Source: Flavobacterium sp. 9R (GTDB taxonomy: Bacteria; Bacteroidota; Bacteroidia; Flavobacteriales; Flavobacteriaceae). Taken from it: DNA of 64,000 bases. Shown piece after piece: positions 55,585 through 63,586 of the stretch (position 1 is the stretch's first letter; each line of letters opens with the position of its first letter). The notes beneath the pieces were generated by a model that saw only the letters and a list, made by a program, of their open reading frames with translations, was not told the DNA's origin and did no database searches. Where the stretch lies: the NCBI RefSeq assembly GCF_902506345.1, contig NZ_LR733413.1, forward strand, positions 1,273,445-1,337,444, read 5' to 3'. The translations under genes and the position numbers were made by a program.

Positions 55585-55678
55585 GGGTTTGCGTTAGGGA
55601 TGGGAGCGGCATCCTCTAGGGGCGGGGTTCGCCCCTAGAGATATAGCGTACAGCCCGACCCTTGTGGTAACGCCCTAC
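55585..55678. repeat. REP-like hairpin element behind trpB
   Basis: The core CTCTAGGGGCG / CGCCCCTAGAG (55614-55624 with 55630-55640, 5-nt loop) is flanked by TAGGGATGGGAGCGGCAT and ATATAGCGTACAGCCCGACC. The flanks resemble the AGGGATAGCAGCTGGC and GTATAGCCCGACC parts of the repeat at 35062-35292. Confidence 0.7.
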
Positions 55679-57495
55679 TACAATTTAAAGTAGTCAATAT
55701 ACGTATTTAAATCTTTATCTCCTCGTCCTGAAAGGCTAATCACGACAATATCTGAGGGTTTGAATTGTTTTTGTTTGAAAATAGCCAAGGCGTGCGAGGT
55801 TTCGATGGCGGGAATGATGCCTTCTAATTTACACAATTCGAGTCCAAACTCCATAGCATCATCATCGGTAACGGAATAGAATTCGGCACGACCAGATTCA
55901 GCCAAATGGGCGTGCATAGGTCCCACACCCGGATAATCTAGGCCAGCCGAGATTGAGTAGGGCTCCGTAATTTGACCATCTGGGGTTTGCATCAACAGGG
56001 TTTTGCAACCGTGAATGATTCCCATTTTTCCTAGTTTGCTCGTAGCGGCACTATGTCCTGAATCGACACCTTTTCCAGCAGCTTCTACGGCAATAATGCC
56101 GACTTCTTCTTGGTCTAAGAAATGGTAAAATGTCCCAGCAGCATTACTTCCGCCACCAATACAAGCTACGACATAGTCTGGGTTTTCGCGACCTTCTTTT
56201 TCGTTTAATTGCCATTTGATTTCTTCGGAAATGACACTCTGAAAACGGGTAACCATATCAGGATAAGGGTGAGGTCCAATGGCGGAACCAATGATGTAAT
56301 GCGTGTCTACGGGATTGTTAATCCAATCGCGGATGGCTTCGTTAGTAGCGTCTTTGAGGGTACGAGAACCTGATAAGGCTGGACGTACGGTAGCACCCAA
56401 CATTTTCATTCGAGCCACATTAGGTGCTTGACGAGCAATGTCGATTTCGCCCATATAAACGATGCATTCTAATCCCATTAAGGCGCAAACGGTAGCGGTG
56501 GCCACACCGTGTTGCCCCGCACCTGTTTCGGCGATGATGCGTTTTTTGCCTAATTTTTTGGCGACTAAAATTTGTCCAATCGTGTTGTTGATTTTGTGTG
56601 CACCCGTATGGTTGAGGTCTTCTCTTTTTAAGTAGACTTTGGTATTGTATTTTTCAGACAATCGCTTCGCAAAATACAATGGGCTTGGACGCCCAACATA
56701 ATCTTTTAATAGCTGGTTGAATTCTTCTTTAAAATCGGGTGTAGCTGTAATGTCCAAATAGTTTTGGCGCAATTCTTCTACATTAGGATATAACATTTCT
56801 GGAATGTAGGCTCCTCCAAACTGACCATAATAGCCTTTTTCGTTTACGTTGTATGACATTTTTTTATTTTTTTTACGTAGGGACAATTCGCGAATTGTCC
56901 TTACAAGATTGATGTTTTTTAATCCAGGTTCTATTTCAAATTTACTATTCACGTCTATGGCGTAAAGAGGTAAATGGGTGTTCAAAATTTCGTTTACTGC
57001 TGCTATTTCGTCAATTCCGATGCCTCCACTAAGGAAAAATGGTTTAGAGGAAGGATACTTTTGTAAAATGGTCCAATCAAAAGTGGTTCCGTTGCCTCCG
57101 GGTAATTTGCCTTTGGTATCAAAAAGAAAGAAATCACAAACAGGCTCGTAGGGTTTTAATAGGTTAAAATCAAAGGTTTCATCTGCTGAGAATACTTTTA
57201 TGATTTCGACACTAGTCCCTAATTTATTTTTTAATTCCAAACAAAAAGATGCCGATTCTTGTCCGTGTAACTGTACGGCTTGTAAATCGTATTGGGCTAC
57301 TTTGTCTAGGATGCTATCACTTTTTTCGTTGACAAAAACTCCCACTTTTTTGATAGATTTGGGTAAGTCAGGCATAGGTCCTTCAAAATAACGAGCCGAC
57401 TTTTTCCAAAAGATAAATCCTATATAATCGGGTAGGAGGGCTGCTACTTCGAGTATGTTATCAGGGTATTTCATACCGCAGATTTTAAGTTTCAT
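55678..57495 (-). CDS. trpF-trpB: TrpF-TrpB fusion: phosphoribosylanthranilate isomerase plus tryptophan synthase beta chain
   Basis: A 605-residue two-enzyme protein. Residues 1-~200 are TrpF, a TIM barrel that isomerises phosphoribosylanthranilate: catalytic Cys in [13 protein letters not shown] and Asp in [19 protein letters not shown]. Residues 213-605 are a complete 393-residue TrpB starting at an internal Met (ATG 56859); its PLP Lys is in [13 protein letters not shown] (fusion Lys301) and the phosphate loop is [12 protein letters not shown]. The linker [15 protein letters not shown] is encoded by a 28-bp palindrome (56877-56904) and an A-rich run, and no stop separates the parts. TrpB can still start at its own ATG. 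It lies between trpC and the AIG2-like gene. Confidence 0.9.
56877..56904. repeat. Palindrome forming the TrpF-TrpB linker
   Basis: GGACAATTCGCGAATTGTCC (56881-56900) is a perfect 20-bp palindrome, extended to 28 bp by GTA...TAC with one G-T pair. It encodes [10 protein letters not shown] in the minus strand. It is like the short REP palindromes seen in Flavobacterium spacers. Confidence 0.85.
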
Positions 57496-60116: not shown

Positions 60117-60575
60117 TTATTTTTCTCGAACGTATTTTTCGATTATGATTTGGTCTACACCAAGTTTTTCAATTTTTTCGATTCCTTTTTGTGTTAAAGT
60201 GTCATTTTGAACTTTTACTACAAAATCAAATTTGTTGTTTTCCCATTCTCTAAGTGAAAAGTATTCTAGATTTTCAGTGTAAAGACTATCTTTTAAAGTA
60301 TACTTTCCTCCTCCAGCAAAATAGACTGCTGCACTGTCTTTTCCATTATTCAAATCATGGTTGAAGAAAGAAAAATGAGTGCCATTAATTATTTTTATCA
60401 TCTTCGTTTTGGGATTGAAGGTTGAAAAAGTACTGTCTTTTATAATTTTAATTGCCGATACGAGTCGCCAAGTGCCTTCAATGCCATTATTTTTCTTTGC
60501 CTTTTCTTGTTTTTCAGCAAGATTACAAGCTGTAAAAAGGACAATCATTAGTAAGCAACTGATTGTTGTTTTCAT
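60117..60575 (-). CDS. Lipocalin-like lipoprotein inserted between trpE and trpG
   Basis: A 152-residue lipoprotein with a short signal (1-16) and lipobox LFTAC then NLAEKQ. The mature part begins IEGTWRLVSAIKI and goes on as FNPKTKMIKIINGTHFSFF...GGGKYTLKDSLYTENLEYFSL...FDFVVKVQNDTLTQKGIEK, the layout of small lipocalin-like proteins (such as DUF4488-type) of Bacteroidota. No enzyme activity is expected. It starts 17 nt after the trpE stop and ends 9 nt before trpG, so it is fully inside the operon. Its tie to tryptophan synthesis is unknown; it may be a chance insertion or envelope ligand binder. Confidence 0.75.
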   Translation of the reverse strand: MKTTISCLLMIVLFTACNLAEKQEKAKKNNGIEGTWRLVSAIKIIKDSTFSTFNPKTKMIKIINGTHFSFFNHDLNNGKDSAAVYFAGGGKYTLKDSLYTENLEYFSLREWENNKFDFVVKVQNDTLTQKGIEKIEKLGVDQIIIEKYVREK

Positions 60576-60592: not shown

Positions 60593-61993
60593 TTAAATCG
60601 TCTCTGCCAAATCCAATGCGGTATTTAAGGCTCTAAGTTTGTTATAAACTTCTTGCATTTCGCTTTCTTCATCAGAGCTTGCTACGATTCCTGCACCTGC
60701 TTGTGAATGCAATTGATGGTTTTTGCTCAAGAAAGTTCGAATCATAATTGCGTGATTAAAATTGCCTTCAAAATCCATAAAACCTATGGCACCTCCATAA
60801 AAAGCACGATTGGTTTTTTCATACTCTTCAATCAATTGCATAGCTCTATGTTTTGGAGCGCCACTCAACGTTCCAGCAGGGAAGGTGTCTGCGACCACTT
60901 GTAACGTTAGGGCTTTTTCGTGTAAATACCCTGTAACTTTGGAAACTAAATGGATAACATGGGAGAAAAATTGCACCTCACGGTATCTTTCTACTTGAAC
61001 GTCATGTCCGTTGCGACTTAAATCATTTCTGGCTAAATCTACAAGCATCACATGTTCACTATTCTCTTTTTTATCTTCAGAAAGAGCTTTGGCTAAAACA
61101 GCATCTTTTTCATCATCGCCTGTTCGTTTGAATGTTCCTGCGATAGGGTGAATTTCGGCTTTTCTGTTTTTTACAATAATCTGAGCTTCCGGAGAAGAAC
61201 CGAATAATTTGAAATCACCATAGTCAAAAAAGAATAAATAGGGGGAAGGGTTAATGCTTCGCAAAGCACGATACACATTAAATTCATCGCCTTTGAAACC
61301 TTGTGTAAAACGTCGTGATAAAACCAATTGAAAAACATCGCCACGGAAACAATGTTTTTTGGCTAATGCCACATTGTGTTTGAATTCTTCATCTGTAAGG
61401 TTCGAAAAACCTTCGCCTTCTTTTGAGAATTTATACGAAGCAATGTTTCGAGATTGCAAGAGTTGTTCGATTTCAGAAATATTATTTTTTCCATCCAAAC
61501 TATGACAAAAAATATAGGCTTCGTTTTTGAAATGATTGATGGCTATGATGTTTTGGTATACCGCATAATATACATCTGGGATAGTCGTGCTGTTTTCTTT
61601 TTTTGCAATACTTACTTTTTCGAAATAGCGAACAGCATCATAAGCAATGTAACCAAATAGCCCGTTATTTATGAATTTAAAATCATTTTTCTTGGATTCA
61701 AATTGACTTGAAAAGTTCTGAATAATCTCAGGTATTTTGGTAGAAGAATCTATGTTAATAGTTTCTGAAGTTCCATCTGGATAATTCTTAGTGATGATTT
61801 CGTTTTCTATTTTAAAAGAAGCAATAGGATTGCAGCAAATGTAGGAGAAACTGTTATCGTTTCCATGATAATCACTACTTTCCAATAATAAACTGTTAGG
61901 GAATTTATCTCTAATTTTTAAATAAACACTAACGGGTGTAATGGTGTCGGCAAGGATTTGCTTGTAATGGGTATTTAATAAATAGGCTTTCAT
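60593..61993 (-). CDS. trpE: Anthranilate synthase component I
   Basis: A 466-residue chorismate-utilising enzyme that forms anthranilate with TrpG, the first and regulated step to tryptophan. The N-terminal LLLESSDYHGNDNSFSY (about 34-50) contains the LLES motif that binds feedback tryptophan. The catalytic part shows AKKHCFRGDVFQLVLSRRF, YLFFFDYGDFKLFGSSPE, HPIAGTFKRTGDDEKDA, SEHVMLVDLARNDLSRNG and TFPAGTLSGAPKHRAM, then GGAIGFMDFEGNFNHAIMIRT. It is the first structural gene of the trp operon and stands 53 nt behind an attenuator (62046-62078), so it is under both feedback and transcription attenuation. Confidence 0.97.
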   Translation of the reverse strand: MKAYLLNTHYKQILADTITPVSVYLKIRDKFPNSLLLESSDYHGNDNSFSYICCNPIASFKIENEIITKNYPDGTSETINIDSSTKIPEIIQNFSSQFESKKNDFKFINNGLFGYIAYDAVRYFEKVSIAKKENSTTIPDVYYAVYQNIIAINHFKNEAYIFCHSLDGKNNISEIEQLLQSRNIASYKFSKEGEGFSNLTDEEFKHNVALAKKHCFRGDVFQLVLSRRFTQGFKGDEFNVYRALRSINPSPYLFFFDYGDFKLFGSSPEAQIIVKNRKAEIHPIAGTFKRTGDDEKDAVLAKALSEDKKENSEHVMLVDLARNDLSRNGHDVQVERYREVQFFSHVIHLVSKVTGYLHEKALTLQVVADTFPAGTLSGAPKHRAMQLIEEYEKTNRAFYGGAIGFMDFEGNFNHAIMIRTFLSKNHQLHSQAGAGIVASSDEESEMQEVYNKLRALNTALDLAETI

Positions 61994-62045: not shown

Positions 62046-62078
62046 TAAAAAAAGGCTTGTCGTGATGACAAGCCTTTT
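62046..62078 (-). terminator. trp attenuator terminator hairpin
   Basis: A 12-bp perfect stem (62050-62061 with 62067-62078) and 5-nt loop, followed on the minus strand by a run of seven T (62047-62053). It lies 53 nt upstream of the trpE ATG and 38 nt behind the leader-peptide stop. No gene ends before it other than the leader, so its job is to stop transcription ahead of trpE. Confidence 0.9.
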
Positions 62079-62122
62079 ATTTATAATAGTTCAAATAATA
62101 CTATAGGAGCTTTGTTCACGAC
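62059..62122 (-). promoter_or_regulatory. Alternative antiterminator pairing of the trp leader
   Basis: On the minus strand GTCGTGAACAAAGC (62122-62109), which covers the leader stop codon, can pair with GCTTGTCATCACGAC (62073-62059), which overlaps the 5' arm, loop and part of the 3' arm of the terminator. Core pairs are GTCG/CGAC with GTG/CAC, and GC/GC with AA/TT, plus a small internal loop. Forming it would block the terminator. The fold is by hand, not computed. Confidence 0.7.
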
Positions 62123-62172
62123 GTTTGACGTAAAGAATTCCACCACCAAGTATTGTTTGTTATTGTTCTCAT
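62116..62172 (-). CDS. trpL: trp operon leader peptide with three consecutive Trp codons
   Basis: An 18-residue reading frame, MRTITNNTWWWNSLRQTS, then TGA. Three TGG codons stand side by side at codons 9-11 (62140-62148). It starts about 10 nt behind the predicted transcription start and is followed by the antiterminator and terminator elements. As in the E. coli trp leader, a ribosome stalled at Trp codons when charged tRNA-Trp is low would leave the segment at the stop codon free to pair with the terminator 5' arm, so trpE is read. With enough Trp the ribosome covers that segment and the terminator forms. The peptide itself needs no function. Confidence 0.9.
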   Translation of the reverse strand: MRTITNNTWWWNSLRQTS

Positions 62173-62188
62173 ATTTTTTTTTGTTGAG

Positions 62189-62218
62189 CAAATATATAAA
62201 GGAATTTGAACTAATCAA
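62189..62218 (-). promoter_or_regulatory. Promoter of the trp operon
   Basis: On the minus strand TTG (62218-62216), a 19-nt spacer, then TATATTTG (62196-62189): a full match to the Bacteroidota consensus. Transcription would start near 62183, giving a leader of ~135 nt down to the attenuator. Confidence 0.8.
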
Positions 62219-62293
62219 AAGTAAAAGATAAAAAATAAAGTATTTTTTTATTGTTTTTTGTTAGATTTCAAACACTTACTAGTGTTTTTTTAA

Positions 62294-63586
62294 TTATCGA
62301 TTGTTTACTAGTATAGCACTTTGTTTTTTTCTAAAATCTGGGTTGTTTTTCAAATCTATTGAAGTAAACAAGTCAATAATTGGAGTTGTTGCAATTTCAA
62401 ATTCCATTGAAGCTGGGTCTGGCCAGTATTTTAGTTTTCCATTATAGCTTTGTTCTTCGCTCACTAAGTTTTCTTTACAACGGTTTACAATGATGTTTTT
62501 TAAATTGATTTTAGCGAAATTTTCTGGAGATAATGTTATTTTTTCACCTAATAATACAAAAGGTGCAAATCCAGAAACAATACTATTTGTAAAAGTCAAA
62601 TTGCAGTTTTCTTTAAGGTAGATAGCTTCACGAACCAATCCTTGATTATTTTCTTCAATATTTACAAATGTAATATTGTTGGCTTTTACATTCGTAAGCT
62701 TTTTAGCCATATCTGCATTTTCTTGTTTGTCATACGAATCAATTTCAAAACATCTTGAATTTCCTGAACCAGATGAAAAAGGGTGACGAATTGCAATACT
62801 ATTATTTAGTGTTGCTTGAGTTCCTTCTGAGAAGTCAAAATCATCGTCATCATTTCTAAAAGAAATTACGTTATTCATAGCTACTTCACCGCCAGTTATT
62901 TGATAAGCATCTCCATTTGAGTAGCTAACTTGAATATGGCTCAAGGCTGTTTTTTTTCCAACACCAGCTAAGATAAGGGCATTGATTTCTTTTGAACCGT
63001 TTATTTTTTTTCCAGCAAATTCAATGCGAACATACTTTAAACTTCCAGAATTATCTTCTGGTTTATCACCGCCATAGGTAGCTTTTGTAGTATCAAGATT
63101 GAAATCTGTTAAAATATGCTTGTTGTCTTTGTTAATTTTATTTACGGGTGCATTGCCTAGGATGATGATGCCACCCCAGTTTCCTGGTTTTCTTACTGTA
63201 GCTGCTTTTTCAGAAGTAAAAACAATTGGTGCTTTTTCTGTCCCTTCGGCAATAAGTTTGGACCCTTGAGTAATGATTAAGGTTCCACAATAGTCGATAT
63301 CTCCTACACCTCCTCTGATTACAGTACCTGGTTCAATTGTAAGTGTAGCATTATTGGTCACATACACTCTGTTGTTTAGAAGGTAGGTTTTGGTACTTAC
63401 TAGTTTGGTGTCTTTGTTGATAATGTCTGGCAATACCTCATTGGTTTCTGGGTATTCTGCTGTTGCAGGTTTAAAATTGGTCCAATTGTTCATCCAATTA
63501 GAGTCTCCATAAATACCATTACTTTTTTGCGCAAACAAAGATAAACTGAACGCGATGCAAATAATTACTAAAGATTTTTGTTTCAT
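62294..63586 (-). CDS. Exported beta-helix-like surface protein of unknown function
   Basis: A ~430-residue exported protein. The start chosen is ATG 63586, because MKQKSLVIICIAFSLSLFAQ is a clean signal peptide; the frame-first ATG at 63619 adds eleven basic residues. The chain has the look of a right-handed parallel beta-helix: short repeated turns such as NNATLTIEPGTVIRGG, GTLIITQGSKLIAEGTEKAPIVFTS, GNWGGIIILGNAPVNK, LKYVRIEFAGKKI and LSHIQVSYSNGDAYQITGG (about 85-260). Similar proteins in Bacteroidota are annotated as hypothetical or pectate-lyase-like; no catalytic residues are recognised, and no C-terminal sorting domain is seen. It is read alone, away from the trp operon, in the same direction. 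Confidence 0.72.
   Translation of the reverse strand: MKQKSLVIICIAFSLSLFAQKSNGIYGDSNWMNNWTNFKPATAEYPETNEVLPDIINKDTKLVSTKTYLLNNRVYVTNNATLTIEPGTVIRGGVGDIDYCGTLIITQGSKLIAEGTEKAPIVFTSEKAATVRKPGNWGGIIILGNAPVNKINKDNKHILTDFNLDTTKATYGGDKPEDNSGSLKYVRIEFAGKKINGSKEINALILAGVGKKTALSHIQVSYSNGDAYQITGGEVAMNNVISFRNDDDDFDFSEGTQATLNNSIAIRHPFSSGSGNSRCFEIDSYDKQENADMAKKLTNVKANNITFVNIEENNQGLVREAIYLKENCNLTFTNSIVSGFAPFVLLGEKITLSPENFAKINLKNIIVNRCKENLVSEEQSYNGKLKYWPDPASMEFEIATTPIIDLFTSIDLKNNPDFRKKQSAILVNNR

Follow-up and report, generated by a model that had tools for sequence, protein, structure and literature searches.

The Bacteroid-trp attenuator upstream of Flavobacterium trpE, with covariation support for its antiterminator

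The minus-strand leader of trpE in Flavobacterium sp. 9R is very probably a ribosome-mediated transcription attenuator of the trp operon of the Bacteroid-trp type (RF01692). Sequence comparison indicates a real and conserved attenuator that is already catalogued, and its antiterminator is now supported by covariation. The window, meaning the whole 64,000-nucleotide stretch analyzed, was scanned against 4227 Rfam families, and RF01692 matched at 80.9 bits (gathering score 49, E 1.2e-8) over model positions 1–131 of 131. The novelty implied in the preliminary description of this DNA is not supported, given the Rfam match and a report on the F. psychrophilum trp operon in print. The classical attenuation layout that it proposed is supported: the frame, Trp run, terminator, and antiterminator are kept in relatives, and both pairings covary.

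Organization of the trpE leader region

The sequence was re-read, and the coordinates and elements earlier placed at 62046..62218 are correct to the base. The order on the minus strand, 5′ to 3′, is TTTG, TATATTTG, the leader ORF, GTCGTGA over its stop codon, the terminator with its T-run, and trpE. The features and the evidence for each are as follows.

62216..62219, minus strand: putative −33 promoter element TTTG (sequence and the published consensus TTTG/TAnnTTTG)
62189..62196, minus strand: putative −7 promoter element TATATTTG (exact TAHHTTTG match)
62067..62192, minus strand: RF01692 Bacteroid-trp match (covariance model, 80.9 bits)
62116..62172, minus strand: leader peptide ORF MRTITNNTWWWNSLRQTS, stop TGA (sequence; WW frame in relatives)
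62140..62148, minus strand: three tandem Trp control codons (sequence; alignment columns)
62092..62159, minus strand: predicted 5′ (1:2) hairpin enclosing the Trp codons and holding the antiterminator strand (minimum-energy fold; Rfam pairing region)
62116..62122, minus strand: antiterminator 5′ strand GTCGTGA, overlapping the leader stop (covariation with 62059–62065; stalled-ribosome fold)
62108..62112, minus strand: predicted second antiterminator segment AAGCT, partner GGCTT at 62070–62074 (folding of its own sequence only)
62059..62074, minus strand: antiterminator 3′ strand GGCTTGTCATCACGAC, common to the terminator (covariation, folding)
62050..62078, minus strand: intrinsic terminator, 12 pairs, loop of 5, T-run 62053–62047 (sequence, hairpin search, relatives)
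60593..61993, minus strand: trpE, anthranilate synthase component I, the regulated gene (ORF and Pfam)

As described earlier, the leader has 18 codons, running from the ATG at 62172 to the TGA ending at 62116, with three adjacent Trp codons at positions 9–11 (62148–62140). In an alignment of 45 leaders (A2), the columns of the second and third Trp codons are invariant, and the first is at least 90% conserved. We infer that the leader is translated and that the ribosome stalls on its Trp codons. The 12-bp terminator is likewise confirmed, with seven T residues after the hairpin, and its core, GGCTTGTC-N3-9-GACAAGCC, occurs at a single place in the 3.58 Mb genome. The antiterminator over the stop codon also stands, GTCGTGA being complementary to TCACGAC (62065–62059) in the terminator loop and 3′ arm.

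The promoter had been called a consensus one, and a σ70 reading of it was not borne out. The σ70 match is 9 of 12 positions, and such sites were rejected as evidence because they are as frequent as in shuffled sequence (7 found, 6.6 expected). The sequence instead predicts a promoter of the Bacteroidota type, in which TTTG (62219–62216) and TATATTTG fit the −33 and −7 elements. The consensus TTTG/TAnnTTTG is given in the available text of PMC7366714 and PMC6847099; the same portions describe the −33 motif as absent or hardly seen in F. johnsoniae, and PMC6847099 describes the phylum as being without Shine-Dalgarno sequences. TAHHTTTG lies within 45 nt 5′ of the leader ATG in 95 of 104 rows from relatives (one site counted twice). 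This promoter would presumably be the one used at the trpE leader.

The trpE ORF matches the Pfam domains Chorismate_bind (255.3 bits) and Anth_synt_I_N (114.7 bits), and further trp genes lie downstream. Three other observations concern this cluster. A 152-residue lipoprotein-like ORF without a Pfam match (MKTTISCLLMIVLFTACNLAEKQ..., 60117–60575, minus strand) lies between trpE and the glutamine amidotransferase (trpG) gene. A single 605-codon frame (55678–57495, minus strand) encodes a PRAI (TrpF) domain and, after it, a PALP (TrpB-like) domain; it may represent a trpF-trpB fusion or two genes that no in-frame stop separates. A Flavo-1 RNA (RF01705, 50.8 bits, 55588–55664, plus strand) lies on the opposite strand of the cluster, just beyond where this ORF ends.

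Alternative pairings and their conservation

The folding of the leader RNA was compared with and without the segment covered by a ribosome, as the preliminary description had proposed, with a stalled ribosome assumed to cover 10 nt beyond the A-site codon. For a stalled ribosome and a polymerase at 62059, the lowest-energy structure is the antiterminator, formed by GUCGUGA with UCACGAC plus AAGCU with GGCUU, at −13.5 kcal/mol whichever of the three Trp codons holds the ribosome. A ribosome at the stop codon gives the terminator (−18 to −19 kcal/mol). When the polymerase has reached 62054, the terminator is the minimum for stalls at Trp codons 1 and 2, and the antiterminator only for the third. 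In the full RNA, the terminator is the minimum for all three stalls (for the first codon, −22.8 kcal/mol versus −14.7 kcal/mol when the antiterminator is imposed). Once its 3′ arm is out, the terminator is favored at equilibrium, and therefore readthrough must be kinetic. The two structures are computed to be mutually exclusive because they share bases 62059–62061 and 62070–62074.

The preliminary description recognized only one competing pair of structures. The terminator/antiterminator pair is upheld, but a third hairpin, 62159–62092, is present in the minimum-energy fold and corresponds to the region that RF01692 pairs. Without a ribosome, this 5′ hairpin and the terminator form together. 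The long 5′ stem of the Rfam model forms in the leader's own fold, with six positions marked as non-standard pairs in the model alignment. The folding energy of the leader RNA is 4.05 SD below that of dinucleotide shuffles, 1 of 200 of which did as well.

The proposed mechanism follows classical attenuation logic with three competing hairpins. Transcription would start near 62184, as predicted from the spacing given in the accessible part of PMC6847099. When charged tRNA-Trp is ample, the ribosome would pass the three Trp codons, reach the UGA at 62118–62116, and cover GUCGUGA; the terminator at 62078–62050 would then form, and a leader RNA of ~138 nt would be released. When charged tRNA-Trp is scarce, the ribosome would stall on the Trp codons and leave GUCGUGA free to pair with UCACGAC (and AAGCU with GGCUU) before the 3′ arm of the terminator emerges. 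The terminator would thereby be blocked, and trpE and the downstream genes would be transcribed. On a leader without a ribosome, the 5′ hairpin would sequester the antiterminator strand and termination would be the default. Readthrough would thus depend on the order of synthesis, and the element would respond to tryptophan through a termination step that presumably depends on charged tRNA-Trp.

The preliminary description staked its reading on conservation of the leader frame and both pairings in relatives, and these are kept. RF01692 matches were found in 208 of 299 genomes of the family, 65 of 101 of the genus, and 7 of 149 of the class (its own genome counted each time), with search filters under which weak matches are lost. 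For the 101 genus genomes, the positions of RF01692 and PF04715 were compared by eye, by coordinate. All 62 genomes with a PF04715 match of at least 101.8 bits have RF01692 directly upstream on the same contig, compared to none of the 8 genomes with a lower full-length match (83.6–93 bits). The remaining 3 of the 65 genomes (G318, G369, and G356) each carry a Trp leader that precedes a trpB-like gene; a full-length PF04715 match is lacking in G369 and G356, and G369 has a second RF01692 match upstream of lysC. The leaders before the trpB-like ORF (L142, L143, and L144 in G369, G356, and G318, respectively) are longer, 26–31 residues, and run through the antiterminator strand.

Of 89 loci, a script recovered both a WW-containing leader and a terminator in 87, which became 85 distinct loci after identical copies were removed. 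The two failures were L042, which has a WWW leader and a terminator whose two G-U pairs put it below the G-C threshold, and L080, which is of the lysine type. The neighborhood of the stop codon was searched for pairing with the terminator loop and 3′ arm. At least six contiguous antiterminator pairs were detected in 82/85 loci, 80/85 at the homologous place (the helix counted in L033 and L085 lies off it), compared to 9.8% of shuffles and 8.2% of displaced slices. L081–L083 have only four pairs. Their stop codon is far downstream, and a rule framed around the stop codon is unfit for them because these 26–31-residue leaders end well past the antiterminator strand.

Covariation was measured on the 45 leaders, picked for diversity with near-identical rows, L081, and L083 left out. 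The eight antiterminator pairs are formed in 87.1% of cells. Four of the eight change on both sides, a count that one of 500 shuffles reached; for the number of further pair types, 34 of 500 did. The covariation score was 0.131 compared to 0.089 for shuffled alignments; none of 500 was as high, and the score was lower at all six slides. Sixteen of the 45 sequences do not form the outermost pair, and 23 of the 41 with letters there do not form the eighth, innermost one, the trpE leader of 9R included. Compensatory changes are seen in L048 (TGTCGCAAT with ATTGCGACA) and in L084, from another family of the class (TCGTAAG with CTTGCGG). The aligned sequences thus argue strongly for antiterminator covariation, and the shuffle figures are not probabilities because shuffling leaves relatedness in place. 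The terminator covaries as well: all 360 cells of its eight-pair core are paired, and four of the pairs vary on both sides. At the five basal pairs of the 5′ stem in the Rfam model, covariation did not exceed that of shuffles in our alignment.

These data bear on three other readings. The trp leader could sense its signal by another route, through uncharged tRNA (T-box), a Trp-binding RNA protein (TRAP), or a riboswitch, any of which could likewise have a terminator placed after the promoter and ahead of trpE. RF01692 and RF01705 were the only families to reach their cut-offs in the window, with none of the T-box or riboswitch type among them, and what is conserved, namely codons held in one frame and a strand lying over the stop codon, is needed by none of these routes; we regard sensing of this sort as very improbable. 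Slightly less credible still is an ordinary terminator of the upstream gene combined with a chance short Trp-rich ORF. A same-strand ORF does end at 62294, 121 nt before the leader ATG, and a Trp triplet alone proves nothing because TGGTGGTGG is found three times on this strand of the window. However, promoter elements lie between that ORF and the leader, the element accompanies trpE in 62/62 genomes of the genus, and the chance ORF is rejected by the conservation of leader frame, Trp codons, terminator, and antiterminator together in relatives. An equally small chance is left to a leader acting mainly on trpE translation or RNA stability, since leader peptides can also work by re-initiation according to the portion of PMC4833913 available, but the T-run terminator and covarying antiterminator point to transcription, and the 122 nt from leader stop to trpE start compares with a re-initiation peak of 11–14 bp in Bacteroidetes in the same text. 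Ribosome-mediated attenuation of transcription remains the best explanation.

Lysine-rich leaders before lysC

Outside the window, a lysine-rich version of the leader is found before lysC. We consider it likely that the Bacteroid-trp attenuator is an exchangeable frame, in which a ribosome-mediated attenuator with lysine codons is homologous to the Trp one and has had its control codons swapped. Read from their sequences, the lysine loci are probably a re-coding of one attenuator frame for another amino acid. The lysine type occurs in eight genomes of the genus sample (L080, L176–L180, L183, and L184) and in the named genomes of Flavobacterium sp. HSC-61S13, Paenimyroides baculatum, P. ummariense, and Chryseobacterium cucumeris (L189, L199, L206, and L214 among the named genomes). 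These loci have the kind of stop-codon segment found at the Trp leaders, ACTTACG-N7-TCGTGA, in which the leader ends LRxxS-stop, and they share the Trp terminator core, CYTGTC...CACGACA. Their leaders mostly contain KKxKK, as in MFISIIKKGKKQYLRPTS, with NKVKK in L176 and RKGKK in L199. The G369 and HSC-61S13 leaders (MNTWIIKKGKKQYLRRTS) retain NTW, comparable to NNTWWW.

A composite pattern that combines the antiterminator strand with the terminator arm and loop matched 153 of 249 genus genomes, and its reversed control had no match. Leaders were read at 104 rows representing 103 sites (G381 appears twice): 96 sites have a WW leader, 7 (8 rows) are lysine-rich, and none is of any other kind. 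Together with L080, this gives the eight lysine genomes. A lysine leader is present in G316. The remaining pattern sites, in the 101-genome sample, overlap RF01692 matches by coordinate, compared by eye, with G666, G679, and G684 left out. No genome of the 249 had two composite-pattern matches, and this pattern revealed no genome with both an intact Trp and an intact Lys version; the Trp version of G318 and G369 falls outside it.

In all eight lysine genomes, the next two ORFs read as an aspartokinase followed by a lysA-like decarboxylase, for which lysC and lysA are our own names. Pfam matches in L178 and L080 are AA_kinase with ACT_9 and two Orn/DAP/Arg decarboxylase domains. A script requiring a lysine-run leader and a terminator passed 3 of 80 aspartokinase loci from named genomes (Flavobacterium sp. 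HSC-61S13, P. baculatum, and C. cucumeris); P. ummariense was recognized by eye. Twelve of the 80 had a terminator by the same script.

The likeness of the lysine loci to the Trp family was compared in several ways. An Rfam scan of seven lysine loci found no family at cut-off. With RF01692 at E up to 5, 4 of 10 loci matched, all below the cut-off of 49: L189 at 46.9 bits and L080 at 46.2 (these two leaders are near-identical), L176 at 36.4, and L179 at 33.5. No match at that limit was detected in L178, L183, L184, L199, L206, or L214. Over the 16 bases before TCGTGA in fixed register, lysine and Trp sequences had an identity of 0.624 compared to 0.26 for column shuffles, in a set of 16 Trp and 10 lysine sequences hand-chosen among those with the shared elements. 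None of 1000 shuffles was as high, and identity was at most 0.377 at ten slides. The best 16-nt match to a Trp leader within ~200 nt did not separate lysine from histidine loci (0.67, n = 11 versus 0.708, n = 25), in a test that takes the best of many places with one query. The pairing gives no independent evidence for the lysine sites because most were picked by the shared pairing elements.

Literature searches of open-licence PMC papers did not find a lysine leader peptide of this kind; the text available from PMC2659441 assigns lysC a riboswitch. Should the lysine version be homologous, the attenuator would have changed its amino acid by swapping a few codons while the RNA switch was kept, and the origin of amino-acid attenuators would become directly testable.

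Leaders for other amino acids were observed in the same genome. A histidine leader, MFAIQLHHHHLHYCTQAMC, with a terminator precedes hisG (L091, G000:C1, upstream of 1164348), and His leaders of this sort are present at 24 of 27 hisG loci of the genus. An Ile/Val-rich leader, MQKHNNTITSIINVIVIITQARGMV, with a terminator precedes ilvD (L092, G000:C1), as do Ile/Val-rich leaders at 10 of the 23 ilvD loci given. Neither of these two loci of its own genome had an Rfam match at cut-off.

Comparison with known systems

The kind, place, and general mechanism of the trpE element are in print, in RF01692 and in PMC2864571, PMC6414381, and PMC9723704. The portions of these papers available to us describe Bacteroid-trp in a table entry as a probable cis-regulatory RNA of Bacteroidetes (PMC2864571, Weinberg et al. 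2010), and a Bacteroid-Trp RNA conserved upstream of the Flavobacterium psychrophilum trp operon that is likened to the E. coli mechanism (PMC6414381, 2019). The corresponding part of the F. psychrophilum transcriptome study (PMC9723704, 2021) presents strong indications of leader-peptide attenuation before operons for amino-acid biosynthesis, and describes structured 5′ elements that precede several genes, pheA and hisG among them. In the sections at hand, the two F. psychrophilum papers (PMC6414381, PMC9723704) give neither the pairing nor a covariation test. The window element resembles RF01692 in being a full-length match upstream of trpE with tandem Trp codons, WWW at 9–11. It differs in extent: the Rfam model ends in GGCUUGUC, the 5′ arm of the terminator, and therefore lacks the terminator 3′ arm and the antiterminator pairing.

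The E. coli trp attenuator has two tandem Trp codons in the 14-codon trpL leader, three competing hairpins, and an attenuated RNA of ~140 nt, and its stop codon is placed so that a terminating ribosome covers the antiterminator strand. The flavobacterial element shares the tandem Trp codons, the three hairpins, the placement of the stop codon, and a similar length of the attenuated RNA (~138 nt predicted). It differs in having three Trp codons rather than two, a promoter of the Bacteroidota type, and a leader of 18 codons, so the earlier statement that this leader is much shorter was wrong. Its antiterminator also draws on the terminator loop and the initial bases of the 3′ arm, besides the 5′ arm. 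Covariation on the antiterminator supports a control of flavobacterial trp genes much like that of E. coli.
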